Origin: Ferrovibrio sp.
GTDB lineage: Bacteria; Pseudomonadota; Alphaproteobacteria; Ferrovibrionales; Ferrovibrionaceae
Reading direction: 5' to 3'
Length of the DNA: 32,028 nucleotides
Assembly (NCBI RefSeq): GCF_029255545.1
Contig: NZ_JANLJJ010000022.1
Coordinates: 1-32,028 of the forward strand
A program made the translations under genes and the position numbers. Of the stretch, positions 14,777-28,739 are shown piece by piece. Numbering within the stretch: the stretch's first letter is position 1; the number at the start of each line of letters is the position of its first letter. The notes below the pieces were generated by a model. That model ran no database searches and was not told the origin of the DNA. It saw only the letters and a program-made list of their open reading frames with translations.

Positions 14777-14822
14777 TTAATCCAGCCGGAAGATGAATGG
14801 GGTCTTAAAGCCGCCTTGCCCA

Positions 14823-14852
14823 TTGAAAACCTTTCGGAAACATCCTTATTAA
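14823..14852 (+). promoter_or_regulatory. Candidate promoter of the Do-family protease
   Basis: TTGAAA at 14823-14828 and TATTAA at 14847-14852 are separated by 18 bases. The predicted start would fall at or within a few bases of the ATG at 14858, implying a leaderless or nearly leaderless message. No Shine-Dalgarno is visible before that ATG. Confidence 0.35.
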
Positions 14853-14857
14853 AAAGC

Positions 14858-16276
14858 ATGCTTCGACAGCCGTTTCCCCGTCGTATCTTCCTTGTCCTGG
14901 CTGGCCTGCTGGCTGCGCTGCTGCCCGCCATTGCCCCGGCACAGCCGCGCCTGCCGGCCAGCCGCAGCGAGATCCAACTCAGTTTCGCACCGCTGGTGCA
15001 GCGCGCGGCGCCGGCCGTGGTCAATGTCTATACCCGCCGGGTCGAAAAGGTGCAGCGCCCGCCGTTGTTCGACGACCCGTTCTTCCGCCATTTCTTCGGC
15101 AACCAGATGCCCTTCGGCGAACCACGCGAACGCATTGCCCAGTCGCTTGGTTCCGGTGTGATCGTCGAGGCGGATGGGGTGATCGTCACCAATAACCACG
15201 TGGTAGAGGGCGCTACGGAGATCGTGGTCGCGCTGGCCGATCGCCGCGAATTCGAAGCCCGCGTCATAGCGGCTGATCCGCGCGTTGATCTTGCCGTGTT
15301 GCGTATCGATACGCGCGGCGAAAACCTGCCTTTTCTGGAGTTCCGTGATTCCGACGAACTGCAGGTCGGCGACCTGGTCGTGGCCATCGGCAATCCGTTT
15401 GGTGTCGGTCAGACCGTCACGCAAGGCATCGTATCAGCCTTGGGCCGCACCGGCATCGGCGACGCCGATGCCCAGTCCTTCATCCAGACCGACGCGGCGA
15501 TCAACCCCGGCAATTCCGGTGGCGCCCTGGTGACGATGGATGGCAAGCTGGCCGGCGTGAATACCGCGATCTATTCGCGCTCGGGGGGATCAATCGGCAT
15601 TGGATTTGCCATTCCGGCGAATCTGGTTGCTTCCACCGTGTCCAGTGCGCTGGCGGGCAAGGGGATCAAGCGACCGTGGCTTGGCGCCAATGGCGAACCG
15701 GTGACATCAGATATCGCGGCGGGCCTGGGACTGGCGCGTCCTAACGGCGTTCTGATCGGCGAGATCTATCGTGGTGGTCCGGCCGACCATGCCGGGCTGC
15801 GCACCGGGGATGTGGTGCTGGCCGTCGAAGGGCGTGAGGTGAACGATCCGCAGGGGCTGAAATTCCGCATTTCCACCCGCAAGCTCGGCGAGACGGCGGC
15901 GCTTGATGTGCTGCGTCGTGGCCAGCGCGTGACCCTGCGCATGAACATGGTCGAGGCGCCAGAAGCGCCGCCGCGCGAGATTACCCAGCTTGCCGGAAAT
16001 CAACCGCTGGCCGGTGCGACGGTGGCCAATCTGTCGCCGGCGCTGGCGATTGAACTGGCTATCGATACGCTGGAGCAGGGCGTCATCGTCATGAATGTCG
16101 CCCAGGGTTCGCCGGCTTATCGGCTGCGGGTGCGGCCCGGCGATCTGATCGTCAAGATCAACAACCGCGATGTCGGGGATGTGCGTGGCCTGCAGGGATT
16201 GGTGCGGGGTACCGATCAGTGGACCGTGGTGCTGAAACGCGGCAAGCAGTTGCTGTCCTTCAGTGTGCGCGCATGA
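14858..16276 (+). CDS. Periplasmic Do/HtrA-family serine protease
   Basis: This is a trypsin-like protease of the DegP/DegQ type, which degrades misfolded envelope proteins. From the ATG at 14858 it is 472 residues. A signal peptide is visible (basic MLRQPFPRR, a hydrophobic run to about residue 26, AQ at 28-29). The catalytic triad is intact: H114 in TNNHVVEG, D144 in DPRVDLAVL, S220 in NPGNSGGAL. Two PDZ domains follow, about 270-365 and 385-470. A TTG 14 codons upstream would bury the signal peptide and is less likely. The stop overlaps rarA (ATGA). Confidence 0.93.
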   Translation: MLRQPFPRRIFLVLAGLLAALLPAIAPAQPRLPASRSEIQLSFAPLVQRAAPAVVNVYTRRVEKVQRPPLFDDPFFRHFFGNQMPFGEPRERIAQSLGSGVIVEADGVIVTNNHVVEGATEIVVALADRREFEARVIAADPRVDLAVLRIDTRGENLPFLEFRDSDELQVGDLVVAIGNPFGVGQTVTQGIVSALGRTGIGDADAQSFIQTDAAINPGNSGGALVTMDGKLAGVNTAIYSRSGGSIGIGFAIPANLVASTVSSALAGKGIKRPWLGANGEPVTSDIAAGLGLARPNGVLIGEIYRGGPADHAGLRTGDVVLAVEGREVNDPQGLKFRISTRKLGETAALDVLRRGQRVTLRMNMVEAPEAPPREITQLAGNQPLAGATVANLSPALAIELAIDTLEQGVIVMNVAQGSPAYRLRVRPGDLIVKINNRDVGDVRGLQGLVRGTDQWTVVLKRGKQLLSFSVRA

Positions 16277-21390: not shown

Positions 21391-22011
21391 ATGACCCGCC
21401 CCAAGACATTGCTGGAGATGGCCGGCGTCGCCGGCCAGCCGATCCTGTGGCAGAACGCCACCCTGCTGCTGATCGACCATCAGGTGGAATACACCGCCGC
21501 AGGCGGCCTGCCGCTGACAGGCATCGATGCCGCCGTGGCTGAAATCGGCCGCCTGCTAACGGCTGCCCGGGCTGCCGGCGCACCGGTGGTGCATGTGCGG
21601 CATCACGGCCGCCCGGGCGGGGCGCTGTTCAACCCGGAAAGCCCGAAGGCGGATTTCATTTCCACGATCCGGCCGCAGGAAGGTGAGGCGGTGGTGACCA
21701 AGGCGTTGCCGAATTCCTTCGCCAACACCGATCTGGACAGCGTGCTGCGCGGCCTGGGCCGCAAGGAGCTGATCATTGCCGGTTTCCAGAGCCATATGTG
21801 CGTCAGCGCCACGGTACGCAGCGCGCTGGATCATGGCTATCGCGGCGTGGTGGTGGCCGATGCCTGCGCCACGCGCGACCTGCCCGATCCGACCGGCAGC
21901 GGCATTGTTTCGGCGGCCGAGTTGCATCGCATCAGCATGACCGCGCTGAACGACCGCTTCGCCGTGGTGGTGCGCGACGCCTCAGCTATTTCGGCGCGGG
22001 CAGCGGCGTAG
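21391..22011 (+). CDS. Isochorismatase-like cysteine hydrolase
   Basis: The 206-residue protein belongs to the isochorismatase-like superfamily (YcaC/nicotinamidase fold). The expected Asp-Lys-Cys triad can be placed at D29 (LLLIDHQVEY), K104 (VVTKALPNSF) and C137 (GFQSHMCVSATVRSALDHGY). No signal peptide is seen, so it is cytoplasmic. The substrate cannot be assigned; amide or ester hydrolysis is typical. It is divergent from the LysR gene, and its last 26 bases overlap the 3' end of the convergent lipoprotein gene. Confidence 0.9.
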   Translation: MTRPKTLLEMAGVAGQPILWQNATLLLIDHQVEYTAAGGLPLTGIDAAVAEIGRLLTAARAAGAPVVHVRHHGRPGGALFNPESPKADFISTIRPQEGEAVVTKALPNSFANTDLDSVLRGLGRKELIIAGFQSHMCVSATVRSALDHGYRGVVVADACATRDLPDPTGSGIVSAAELHRISMTALNDRFAVVVRDASAISARAAA

Positions 22012-22798
22012 CATTCACGCCGCTGCGTGGCGCGGCATCGGCGGGTGGCACCGGCTGAATGGGGCCGCCTGTTTCCGAAGGGCGCCGTTGCGTGCGCCGG
22101 TCAGCCGGTAGAGTCTCCCAGAGATTGTTGGCTTCGGCCAGCGTCAGCTTCCGGTCGCCCGGCCGGCAGGCCCGACTGCGATAGAGCAGGTTGCGCGCGG
22201 GGAAGAAACACCAGGAGGCTTCGGCGAGTTGCGCGCGTTGCAACAGCTCGGCTTCCTCCGAATTGATCCAGCGACTGCCGGCAGGGCAGGCGGGCGCTTC
22301 GAAGACATTCCCCGTGCTGTCGTTGTGGCAGAGCGCATAGACGCCTTCGCCGACGCGTGCCGCATTGCTGGAATAGGGCGTGCCGGAATAGGCGCTAGGC
22401 CCTGCGGGCGGAGTGTTGCTCTGCGGTACCGGGGCCGGTCTGGTCGTGGCGGCATTGCGCGACGGCATTGGTGCGATCTCCGGCGCGCCGCGCCCCGCCA
22501 CCGGTGCCCGGGTGGTGGTGAATTGCCGCTCGGCCTGTTCCATGCCGATGGCAATATAGCCCGACGCGCAACGGCCAGTCTGGCTAGTATAGAGCAGGCC
22601 TGTTTCGCTGTTGAAGCAGGGGATGCCGGTTGCCGTCGCCGCGGCTTCTTCCGCCGAGGTGTTGCGGCCCGGACGATTGTCGCTGCCGGCCCAGCTGCGA
22701 TAGAGGCTGCGGTTCAGGTCGCGCACGCTGCTTTCCATGCCGCTGCAGGCCGTCAGGCCGGCCAGCAGCATCAGGATCAGCGCCGCGCGCCGGGGCAT
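21986..22798 (-). CDS. Lipoprotein with three cysteine-pair repeats, function unknown
   Basis: The start at 22798 gives 270 residues with a lipoprotein signal (MPRRAALILMLLAGLTAC, lipobox LTAC, lipidated C18). A GTG 11 codons upstream is possible but would overlap queF. The mature part has three similar units, each with two cysteines: C61-C77, C157-C171 and C197-C211. They share a pattern C, a few residues, G/N-x-L/V-Y/F, then C-x-x-G. A Pro/Ala/Thr-rich linker (about 95-140) separates unit one from two. The C-terminus is Pro-rich. I know no family for this. Its stop is 5 bases after queF's direction of reading and it may be co-transcribed with it. Confidence 0.72.
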   Translation of the reverse strand: MPRRAALILMLLAGLTACSGMESSVRDLNRSLYRSWAGSDNRPGRNTSAEEAAATATGIPCFNSETGLLYTSQTGRCASGYIAIGMEQAERQFTTTRAPVAGRGAPEIAPMPSRNAATTRPAPVPQSNTPPAGPSAYSGTPYSSNAARVGEGVYALCHNDSTGNVFEAPACPAGSRWINSEEAELLQRAQLAEASWCFFPARNLLYRSRACRPGDRKLTLAEANNLWETLPADRRTQRRPSETGGPIQPVPPADAAPRSGVNATPLPAPK

Positions 22799-22802
22799 CT
22801 GA

Positions 22803-23291
22803 TCAGCCGCGACCGCGATAGGATGCGACACCCTGATCCGGCAGCCACAGGCCAGTTGGCGGTTTGCCGGTCTGATAGAACACGTCGATCGGCATGCCGC
22901 CGCGCGGATACCAATAGCCGCCGATCCGCAGCCAGCGCGGCTTCACCGCCTGCACCAGGCGCTTGGCGATGCTCACCGTGCAATCCTCGTGGAAGGCGCC
23001 ATGGTTGCGGAAGCTGTTGAGGAACAGTTTCAGCGATTTGGATTCCACGATGCTCCGGTTTGGCACGTAATCAATCACCAGATGCGCGAAATCGGGCTGA
23101 CCGGTCATCGGGCAGAGGCTGGTGAATTCCGGCTGCACGAAGCGGATCAGGTACAGCGTGCCGGGCTGTGGATTGGGCACTGTTTCCAGCTTCGCCTCGG
23201 CAGGGCTGTCAGGCTGGCTGGCGGCCTGGCCCAACTGAGTCAGGTCCGGGTAGCGGCGGGGGGAAGAGGGGGATATCTTGCGTTTGGCCAT
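22803..23291 (-). CDS. queF: NADPH-dependent 7-cyano-7-deazaguanine reductase
   Basis: QueF reduces preQ0 to preQ1 in queuosine tRNA modification. From the ATG at 23291 it is 162 residues, the short single-domain type. The nucleophile is C60 in [15 protein letters not shown], with D67 in the same motif. The QueF signature ESKSLKLF lies at 83-90, and NHGAFHEDC at 97-104 supplies the conserved His/Glu. An ATG seven codons upstream adds MLWQKKT, which is not needed. The lipoprotein gene follows 4 bases after the stop. I saw no preQ1 riboswitch in its short leader, and no other queuosine genes are in the window. Confidence 0.95.
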
Positions 23292-23364
23292 GGTCTTCTT
23301 TTGCCACAACAATACCTTTATTGCATCCCCGTGTGGCCATGATCCGATCCAAGCTTTGCTCCTG

Positions 23365-23378
23365 TCCGGCCGGCCGGA
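23365..23378. repeat. 14-bp perfect palindrome between queF and the repeat-protein gene
   Basis: TCCGGCCGGCCGGA is its own reverse complement and lies in the divergent gap, 51 bases before the repeat-protein ATG. It may be an operator, but a GC-only palindrome in GC-rich DNA can arise by chance. Confidence 0.35.
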
Positions 23379-23428
23379 TGCCCCACAAGATACCAGCCGG
23401 GCCTATCGATCGCCCCAAGGAGGCAGAC

Positions 23429-23767
23429 ATGATGTTCCGTCTTAGAACTTTCGCCACCGCAGCCGCTTTTGCCGGAGCCCTGACGCTGGGCGCCGCCGGT
23501 ACTATTGCCCAAGCCCAGCAGACCCCGGCCACCCCTGCCACGCCAGCCCAGCCGGGCGTGGCTCCGGCCACGCCTGCCACGCCGGCGGCCCAGGGCCAGG
23601 CCGGCCAGGCCAAGGCTGATGCCAAAAAGGCGGAGAAAAAGGCCACCGAAAAGAAGGCCGACGCCAAAAAGGCGGAAAAGCGGGCTGATGAGAAAAAGGC
23701 CGCAGCCCGGAAGGCAGAGAAAAAAGCTGACCAGAAAACCAGGGATACCAGGAAATCCGCCAACTGA
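23429..23767 (+). CDS. Exported Lys/Ala-rich protein with 14-residue tandem repeats
   Basis: The ATG at 23429 follows a strong AAGGAGG at 23417-23423 and gives 112 residues. A signal peptide (MMFRLRTFATAAAFAGALTLG, likely cleavage after AQA at 27-29) is followed by a Pro/Thr/Ala-rich spacer to about residue 53. The rest is three tandem 14-residue units at 65-78, 79-92 and 93-106, with consensus A-K-K-A-E-K-K-A-D-E-K-K-A-D. The unit equals two heptads, so a charged helix or coiled coil is expected. The frame is open upstream into non-coding DNA, which is ignored. No family is recognised; low-complexity matches to histone H1-like proteins would not show homology. Confidence 0.75.
   Translation: MMFRLRTFATAAAFAGALTLGAAGTIAQAQQTPATPATPAQPGVAPATPATPAAQGQAGQAKADAKKAEKKATEKKADAKKAEKRADEKKAAARKAEKKADQKTRDTRKSAN
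23621..23746 (+). repeat. Three tandem 42-bp coding repeats
   Basis: Units at 23621-23662, 23663-23704 and 23705-23746 encode the 14-residue repeats of the exported Lys/Ala-rich protein. The first two both begin GCCAAAAAGGCGGA exactly; the third has diverged. Unit number could vary between strains. Confidence 0.75.
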
Positions 23768-27503: not shown

Positions 27504-28739
27504 GTGGCGGGTTCCGACATATCGCAGCGCCAGCGGCCAAAGGTCGGCTATGGCGAACTGCTGGCGACTATCGCCGACCATGAGAAATACCGCCAGCGCC
27601 TGCCTGGCGGTCGCCGGGCGATCTTTCAGTTCCGTGACCTGTCGCACCTGACCATGGCCGGCGTCGATCTGGCCGGCGCCGACTTCACCGGCTGCAATCT
27701 TCAGTCGGTGAATCTGGCCGATACCAATCTGAGCAATGCCGTGCTGTACGGTGCTGATCTGCGTGGCGCCTCGATGCAGGGTGCCCGGCTCGACCGCGCG
27801 GATCTGCGCGGCGCCTCGCTGCGCGGCGCTGATCTGACCGGGGCGCGGCTGCAGGATGCCGATATGCGTGACGGCGTGATCGCCGAGCGCGATCAGAGCG
27901 GCCGGGTGCAATTGCGCAAACCCGATCACGAGGCAGTCGATCTGGGTGGCGCGCGGTTGGTGGCGGCCGATCTCACCGGCGCCAACCTCACCGGCGTCGC
28001 GGCCGGCCGTACCGACTTCACCGATGCCATCATGGTGAACTGCCAGCTTGCCCGCGCCAACCTCGCCGCCGCCCGGCTGGAAGGCGCCAATCTTTCGGGT
28101 GCCGATCTTTCGGGGGCCAATCTGAAAGACGCCCAGTTGCGCGGCGCCGTGCTGGTTGGTGTCAACCTTGAAAACACGGTGATGGCCGGGGCCGATACCC
28201 GCAACGTGCTTGATGACAAGCCGCAGGGCCGGCCGCTGGCCGAGCTTGGCGTGCCGATCGAGGAGGCCTTCCGGCTGTACCGGCTCTGGGTCGAGACCGG
28301 TGGCAGCAAGGGGCGCCTGTTTGATTTCAGCCGGCTGGACCTGCGCCAGATTGGACCGCGGCCGGGACTGGTGCTGACCGGCGCCACGCTCGATGGGGCG
28401 ATCCTGCAGGGGCTCAATCTTGAACGGGCCTCGATGCAGGGTACCAAACTGCAGGATGCCGATCTGCGCGACTGCAACCTGTCGGGGGCGGATCTGCGCG
28501 GCGCCAACCTTTCCGGCGCGCTGCTGGTGCGCGCCGATCTGCGCGACGCCGATCTGCGGCCATTGATCCTGGGGGGCGACCGGGCTTTTCCGGCCAACCT
28601 GACCCGCAGTCTGTTGCGCGGCGCCGATCTGCGCGGCGCCAGAATGAAGCTGGCCTGGCTCGACGAGGCCGACATGACCCGCGCGATGCTCGATGGCGCC
28701 GACCTGTCAGAGGCCCGCCTGCCGCAGCGGCGGAACTGA
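27504..28739 (+). CDS. Pentapeptide-repeat protein with two repeat modules
   Basis: The 411-residue protein consists mainly of A(D/N)LXX pentapeptide repeats, which fold as a right-handed quadrilateral beta helix. Module one runs about 46-235 with an insertion at about 125-145 (IAERDQSGRVQLRKPDHEAV). Module two runs about 281-405. Each module is preceded by a similar helical leader: DHEKYRQRLPGGRRAIFQFRDL at 25-46 and YRLWVETGGSKGRLFDFSRLDL at 259-280. There is no signal peptide or membrane segment, so it is probably cytoplasmic. The GTG start has only a G-rich stretch as ribosome binding site. Function is unknown; some relatives mimic DNA and bind gyrase, but that is not shown here. Confidence 0.88.
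   Translation: MAGSDISQRQRPKVGYGELLATIADHEKYRQRLPGGRRAIFQFRDLSHLTMAGVDLAGADFTGCNLQSVNLADTNLSNAVLYGADLRGASMQGARLDRADLRGASLRGADLTGARLQDADMRDGVIAERDQSGRVQLRKPDHEAVDLGGARLVAADLTGANLTGVAAGRTDFTDAIMVNCQLARANLAAARLEGANLSGADLSGANLKDAQLRGAVLVGVNLENTVMAGADTRNVLDDKPQGRPLAELGVPIEEAFRLYRLWVETGGSKGRLFDFSRLDLRQIGPRPGLVLTGATLDGAILQGLNLERASMQGTKLQDADLRDCNLSGADLRGANLSGALLVRADLRDADLRPLILGGDRAFPANLTRSLLRGADLRGARMKLAWLDEADMTRAMLDGADLSEARLPQRRN

Follow-up and report, generated by a model that had tools for sequence, protein, structure and literature searches.

What does a small exported protein do when it carries a lipobox, three units of two cysteines each and no domain named by the libraries? The question is raised by a gene in a 32,028-nucleotide stretch of Ferrovibrio DNA, the whole of which is referred to here as the window. 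We lean toward reading its product as a lipid-anchored protein with three copies of an undescribed, disulfide-stapled recognition module of approximately 40 residues.

The lipoprotein and its genomic setting

The lipoprotein gene occupies positions 21986–22798 of the minus strand and encodes 270 residues, with an ATG at 22798 and the stop codon at 21986–21988. The signal peptide ends in the lipobox LTA-C18 (22745–22798, minus strand), the lipid-anchor cysteine being encoded at 22745–22747. LTAC fits the lipobox pattern L-[AST]-[AGS]-C, and a lipobox is present in all 10 orthologs. Judged by these residues, the protein is a lipoprotein and a signal peptidase II substrate, with lipid modification predicted. 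An earlier note on this DNA had described a lipobox followed by three two-cysteine units, and L-T-A-C18 and all the units are indeed found in this minus-strand frame. The same note had tentatively placed the protein on the outer membrane, which is unsupported by the residue at lipobox position +2: the window protein has Ser there, 4 of 10 orthologs have Asp and 5 of 10 have Gly. Asp at +2 is an inner-membrane retention signal in E. coli, the organism for which this rule is known. A LolA gene was found in 8 of the 9 genomes tested.

The remainder of the protein, encoded on the same minus strand, alternates between conserved and variable regions. The orthologue alignment delineates a membrane-proximal conserved motif, RDLNRSLYRS (residues 26–35; 22694–22723), which reads RDLNRSLYRG in 6 of 10 orthologs. 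Unit 1 (residues 58–96; 22511–22627) contains C61 and C77, was delimited by profiles, and has predicted strands at residues 59–63 and 68–72 and a predicted helix at residues 86–95. It is followed by a proline-rich variable linker (residues 97–153; 22340–22510) with a pLDDT of about 40 over most of its length. Unit 2 (residues 154–192; 22223–22339; C157 and C171) is directly abutted by unit 3 (residues 193–232; 22103–22222; C197 and C211), both being delimited by profiles and by a model of units 2 and 3. The C-terminus bears a proline-rich conserved motif, PVPPADAAPRSGVNATPLP (residues 249–267; 21998–22054), with the consensus PVPxxxAAPRGGVxATPLP in the orthologue alignment.

A protein search of 116 genomes matched all 10 genomes of the window genus (G000–G009), with one copy in each. 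Three weak matches outside the genus in this search (E 5.5e-4 to 4.8e-3), and one further weak match from another search, failed the unit profile. All 10 orthologs have the lipobox and then exactly six cysteines, spaced 16, 14 and 14. Values of dN/dS (0.13–0.31 in 6 pairs) show that the gene evolves under purifying selection. Mean identities, computed over 8 of the 10 orthologs with two near-duplicates excluded, are 68–73% in the units, 26% in the linker before unit 1, 36% after unit 1 (residues 96–152) and 56% after unit 3. The membrane-proximal region (63%) and the tail (71%, residues 248–270) are near the units in this respect. Besides the cysteines, the stretches S72–R76, L205–R209 and R212–D215 are invariant in 10 of 10 orthologs.

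The upstream neighbor on the minus strand is a queF-like gene (22803–23291), named from its sequence without a library scan and considered here as context only. The lipoprotein ATG lies 4 nt past its stop codon. The two genes are probably co-transcribed, because the lipoprotein start trails the queF-like stop by 3–7 nt in 9 of 10 genomes; in the tenth they overlap by 29 nt at the chosen start. On the other side, the lipoprotein gene shares 26 nt with a convergent downstream frame that looks isochorismatase-like by eye, and the gene order, this frame included, is repeated in L016, the only other contig read for order. The lipoprotein gene was probably added within the genus Ferrovibrio, because queF occurs in 8 of 8 sister-genus genomes with a unit protein after it in 0 of 8 (two of these have less than 500 nt there). 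A role in queuosine synthesis, as the adjacency to queF might suggest, was set aside in view of these 8 genomes, which have queF without the unit protein; QueF is cytosolic.

Three other frames of the window, all on the plus strand, were recorded. Positions 23168–23767, divergent from the queF-like gene, encode an exported-looking Ala/Lys-rich protein with KKAEKKA-like repeats; by eye, a stretch resembling this protein also lies beside queF in contig L015. By eye as well, positions 14816–16276 encode an HtrA-like serine protease, in which the unit profile finds no unit, and positions 27504–28739 encode a pentapeptide-repeat-like protein of 411 residues.

A repeat unit with two conserved cysteines

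Apart from C18, the window protein has six cysteines, C61, C77, C157, C171, C197 and C211, and no others, so the pairs C61–C77, C157–C171 and C197–C211 stand where the earlier note had put them, with spacings of 16, 14 and 14. The pattern C-[FYH]-x(6)-[LVI]-[YF]-x(4-6)-C-x-x-G-x(3)-[IL]-x(3)-[EQ]-A fits 3 of 3 window units; when it is relaxed slightly, it covers 30 of 30 units of the 10 orthologs. The unit is longer than the succession of cysteine, turn, aromatic residue and C-x-x-G proposed earlier and runs past the second cysteine. Homologs lacking the cysteines of one or more units, which would have spoken against the earlier proposal, number 0 of 10 orthologs.

The relationship between the units was assessed with leave-one-unit-out profiles from the 10 orthologs, each against 5000 free and 5000 cysteine-pinned shuffles. 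The profile of units 2 and 3 scores window unit 1 at 11.7 bits and that of units 1 and 2 scores unit 3 at 17.0 bits, and 0 of 5000 free and 0 of 5000 pinned shuffles reach either score; the profile of units 1 and 3 scores unit 2 at 9.4 bits, which is reached by 4 of 5000 free and 0 of 5000 pinned shuffles. The similarity of the units exceeds cysteine spacing, because no cysteine-pinned shuffle reaches the real scores. It is well supported by these profiles that the three units are copies of one repeat domain. The suggestion of a repeated small domain without a recognized family thus holds, the leave-one-out profiles beating the shuffles and the libraries naming none.

Within the libraries, Pfam assigns 0 families to the window protein, no hit in the units exceeding the gathering threshold, and returns three weak families for the 10 orthologs (best E 0.021). 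NCBIfam, PHROGs and PADLOC give nothing above noise for the window protein and orthologs (best PHROGs E 0.029). Among PDB sequences, the whole-protein profile has no match; a match of the unit profile to macrophage-expressed gene 1 (E 0.022, 13 residues) was rejected as a short C-x-x-G match only, and the later unit profile reaches a best E of 0.49. The plasmid collection and the phage collection hold no match to the window protein, and one viral-contig scan gave none. No literature on the window protein or the module was found within open-licence PMC papers. We regard the two-cysteine module as small, apparently undescribed and probably disulfide-bonded, and as resembling other exported accessory modules.

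The fold of the tandem units was modeled from 12 tandem-unit sequences (86 residues; mean pLDDT 84.5, pTM 0.51). In model numbering, strand 5–9 carries Cys 7, strand 14–18 follows, Cys 21 lies in a turn, and strand 25–28 leads into helix 30–43; the same series of elements recurs in the second unit, with cysteines at 47 and 61. The unit is accordingly predicted to be a β-hairpin, a short strand and a helix, occurring twice in units 2 and 3. The whole-protein model has a mean pLDDT of 60.9, with linkers and tail of low confidence. Neither the whole-protein model nor that of units 2 and 3 has a PDB fold match at E ≤ 0.001, VIA-align gives no match with Z ≥ 5, and the best match in the viral structure library has an E of 0.024 and an RMSD of 8.6.

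The two cysteines of each module most likely form an intra-unit disulfide. This is the simplest reading because the proteins have exported starts, each of the 9 genomes tested (out of 17 accepted) has a DsbB gene, and the protein of genome G074, described below, has just one unit, which contains two cysteines. The paired cysteines might instead be redox-active or metal-binding, making the protein an envelope redox or metal-handling factor, and the two conserved cysteines per unit and a genus name that suggests iron metabolism fit this; we nevertheless consider it the least probable of the readings weighed here, as the aligned units have no conserved histidine and no C-x-x-C motif, the cysteine spacing ranges from 12 to 21 among relatives, two ligands per unit make an incomplete site, and two relatives are fused to peptidases and none to a nameable oxidoreductase.

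Relatives in other families and fusions to trypsin-like peptidases

With iterated profiles the unit was also recognized outside Ferrovibrio, where exported proteins from four further alphaproteobacterial families carry 1 to 4 copies of it. Relatives were chosen by profile and then by eye, a procedure that favors units with both cysteines and exported starts, and the accepted set comprises 17 genomes of five families and one class: 10 Ferrovibrio genomes, 3 genomes of g245 (one frame-broken), and the genomes G354, G788, G074 and G350. The set includes free-standing lipoproteins, whose units number 2, 3 or 4, two fusions to Trypsin_2, and one protein in which a SHOCT-like tail follows three units. 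The cysteine spacing is 16 in 13 of 21 units of the other families' intact proteins. A lipobox or signal peptide stands at the start of all the intact relatives that were accepted, the starts being picked by eye; these exported starts are non-independent evidence, because an exported start was an acceptance criterion.

When the first Ferrovibrio-unit profile was run against 385 class genomes, the sole match outside the genus that proved real, among the loci read, was in G329, a g245 genome, where one frame with two matches (E 0.0115 and 0.042) proved to be a four-unit lipoprotein beside a three-unit lipoprotein. The two genes are adjacent on the minus strand of contig L029 (1327–1965 and 2037–2645, with four and three units), and the pair likely arose by local duplication with a change in unit number. 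The four-unit gene is also found in two more g245 genomes, one copy being frame-broken: in G405 (L049/L119) it is split in two frames, as a pseudogene or through an assembly error.

These matches go beyond the placement of cysteines, in that no cysteine-pinned shuffle reaches any real score. A profile built from Ferrovibrio only scores the g245 proteins at 25.7, 15.9 and 14.5 bits, compared with shuffle maxima of 11.3, 9.8 and 13.2 bits (0 of 2000 shuffles in each case), the third margin being narrow. In the reverse direction, the g245 profile scores the Ferrovibrio protein at 30.7 bits, and the shuffle maximum is 9.7 bits (0 of 2000). A profile built without G354 and G074 scores these at 46.3 and 24.9 bits, and for G788, a two-unit lipoprotein, and G350 a subsequent profile gives 42.4 and 32.5 bits, respectively; for all four, 0 of 3000 shuffles score as high.

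The iterated profile matched 12 of the 385 class genomes at E ≤ 0.005, of which 7 were accepted; the last iterated search matched 14 of 386 at E ≤ 0.001, of which 8 were accepted, with G788 and G350 added; and the phylum draw matched 6 of 398, with the window genome as the 1 accepted. Few genomes have the module, with 7 of 385 accepted in the class and 1 of 398 in the phylum draw, and the absences in these large draws are weak evidence because only about 18–19 candidates per genome were scored and G354 and G074 had no match in the first Ferrovibrio-unit search of the 385 class genomes. Rows were rejected after the frames were read, for want of an exported start, for a single cysteine, for an Arg-rich or antisense-looking frame, or as a different enzyme. 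They amounted to 25 of the 26 weak loci fetched from the first unit-profile search of 385 genomes, 2 of 5 and 2 of 12 genomes in two intermediate searches, 5 of 6 in the phylum draw, 5 of 12 in the iterated class search and 6 of 14 in the last search; weak extra rows in G004 and G008 (12-genome search) lay outside the frames read. G350, an exported three-unit protein, was accepted for its three units after a signal peptide, at an E of 9.7e-4 that is weaker than those of some rejected rows. In its gene (L148:490–1755, plus strand), units 1 and 2 are exact copies with a cysteine spacing of 12, the third unit has a spacing of 15, and the SHOCT-like tail scores below the cut-off (21.5 versus 27 bits).

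For the relatives, too, the libraries were uninformative about the unit. Pfam and NCBIfam name no family in the g245 proteins and one orthologue. In G354 and G074 no Pfam row above the cut-off extends over the unit parts. Pfam rows below the cut-off are DUF7251 over the G354 units (13.9 versus 27 bits) and DUF6455 touching the G350 units (12.4 versus 23.7 bits). Searched with the unit parts, the plasmid collection gives no match for G354, G788 or G350, nor does the phage collection for G354.

The first two architectures seen besides multi-unit lipoproteins both run into a Trypsin_2 domain, a fusion observed in two proteins only. In the G354 lipoprotein a trypsin-like domain comes after four units; the G074 protein has a signal peptide, one unit and then a domain of that type. 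Pfam Trypsin_2 scores 83.9 and 84.9 bits in G354 and G074, respectively (cut-off 27.6), and the His, Asp and Ser positions are present by eye. NCBIfam gives HtrA-, DegS- and MarP-type rows for both, on the peptidase part only and all below the cut-off. The single unit of G074 holds two cysteines; the other two cysteines of the protein lie in and after the peptidase domain. In the window's genome no peptidase fusion is seen, because the unit profile matches only the three units of the lipoprotein gene.

Searches of the plasmid collection with the full fusion proteins match the peptidase part only, among the matches listed (30 of 155 and 30 of 198), and the unit is absent from 8 of 8 plasmid-borne related peptidases fetched from hand-chosen loci. 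Trypsin_2-type peptidases carry varied accessory parts: among four related alphaproteobacterial Trypsin_2 proteins scanned with Pfam, one bears PAN domains behind its peptidase, and in the other three the N-terminal part spans 190 to 420 residues with no Pfam name at E ≤ 0.01. The two-cysteine unit occupies a position of this sort. Among the plasmid-borne alphaproteobacterial peptidases of this type, PAN follows the peptidase at L166, long unnamed N-terminal parts are found at L164 and L165, and a peptidoglycan-binding-like stretch is discernible by eye at L163, where Pfam leaves it unnamed, and at L167.

Possible role of the module and comparison with known systems

The architecture of these proteins suggests a binding role for the module. 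The module would be built from a hairpin that carries the first cysteine, a turn that holds the second (C-x-x-G), and then a short strand that leads to a helix (x-[EQ]-A), with the disulfide stapling the hairpin to the turn. It recurs, 1 to 4 copies per protein, in exported proteins of at least five alphaproteobacterial families, that of Ferrovibrio included, either lipid-anchored on its own or ahead of a trypsin-like peptidase, and most likely is the recognition part for an envelope ligand. The window protein could then be a multivalent binder fixed to the membrane, in which modules 2 and 3 make up a single tandem arm, a flexible tether bears module 1, and the conserved tail, rich in proline, may contact a partner.

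The strongest competitor, which we still regard as rather unlikely, is that the units are purely structural, binding nothing and acting as rigid disulfide-stapled spacers that part the N-terminal motif from the proline-rich tail. Conservation of the membrane-proximal region and the tail almost matches that of the units, and the unit number varies from 1 to 4 among relatives, as spacers would show. The lone unit of G074 before its peptidase would, however, be a poor spacer, and units 1 and 2 are already parted by a flexible linker; the non-cysteine residues invariant in all 10 orthologs, which may lie at the surface, also argue against it.

The two peptidase fusions bear on a further, improbable possibility: that in Ferrovibrio a separately encoded trypsin-like or HtrA peptidase is regulated or inhibited by the window protein, or is served by it as a substrate adaptor, the same module being joined to the enzyme itself in G354 and G074. 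The window does contain the HtrA-like frame at 14816–16276, recognized by eye, but this lies approximately 6 kb off with several genes intervening, any interaction is putative, and the other relatives stand alone or have a SHOCT-like tail. About equally speculative is a broader scheme in which the module would be a protease-associated recognition domain of alphaproteobacterial envelopes that, when fused to Trypsin_2 peptidases, delivers substrates or senses the envelope state, the stand-alone multi-module lipoproteins of Ferrovibrio would serve a separate peptidase as membrane-anchored adaptors or decoys, and the disulfides would couple the system to envelope redox.

The module ties orphan lipoproteins of several alphaproteobacterial families to trypsin-like envelope peptidases, and its profile would therefore annotate proteins that now have no domain at all. 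Animal secreted proteins are often assembled from small disulfide-held modules, and in bacterial envelopes short modules can slip past domain libraries. The question raised is whether the unit has a binding partner, be it a glycan, another protein or the substrate of a peptidase.

Compared with known systems, the unit resembles PAN/Apple domains (PF14295, PF00024) in being a small exported module on the same kind of peptidase, as in a Rhizobium leguminosarum protein. Disulfides hold PAN domains together, and their ligands are proteins or sugars. By contrast, our unit has two cysteines and precedes the peptidase, whereas PAN follows it; PAN_1, PAN_2 and PAN_4 have no match in the unit proteins scanned, and the same library detects PAN in the R. 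leguminosarum peptidase. The likeness to MbtH-like proteins is one of fold only, a small β-sheet with a helix, and is not evidence of kinship: MbtH rows recur among the weak Foldseek matches of the whole-protein model (best E 0.53), and MbtH PA2412 aligns with the model of units 2 and 3 in VIA-align (Z 2.1, 46 residues, RMSD 4.3), but no MbtH E is better than 0.5 and no Z is 3 or more. MbtH proteins act in the cytosol as partners of adenylation domains and are not known to carry the cysteines.

The multi-unit lipoproteins of g245 (G329 and G404) share with the window protein the lipobox, three or four units, the matching cysteine pattern and reciprocal profile matches. They differ in an identity of 25–29% over the tandem units, in the absence, by eye, of the proline-rich tail and, in G329, in the adjoining of two such genes. 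The window protein differs from the Trypsin_2 peptidases in having no peptidase domain, yet these carry the same module ahead of theirs, as four units in G354 and as one unit in G074.
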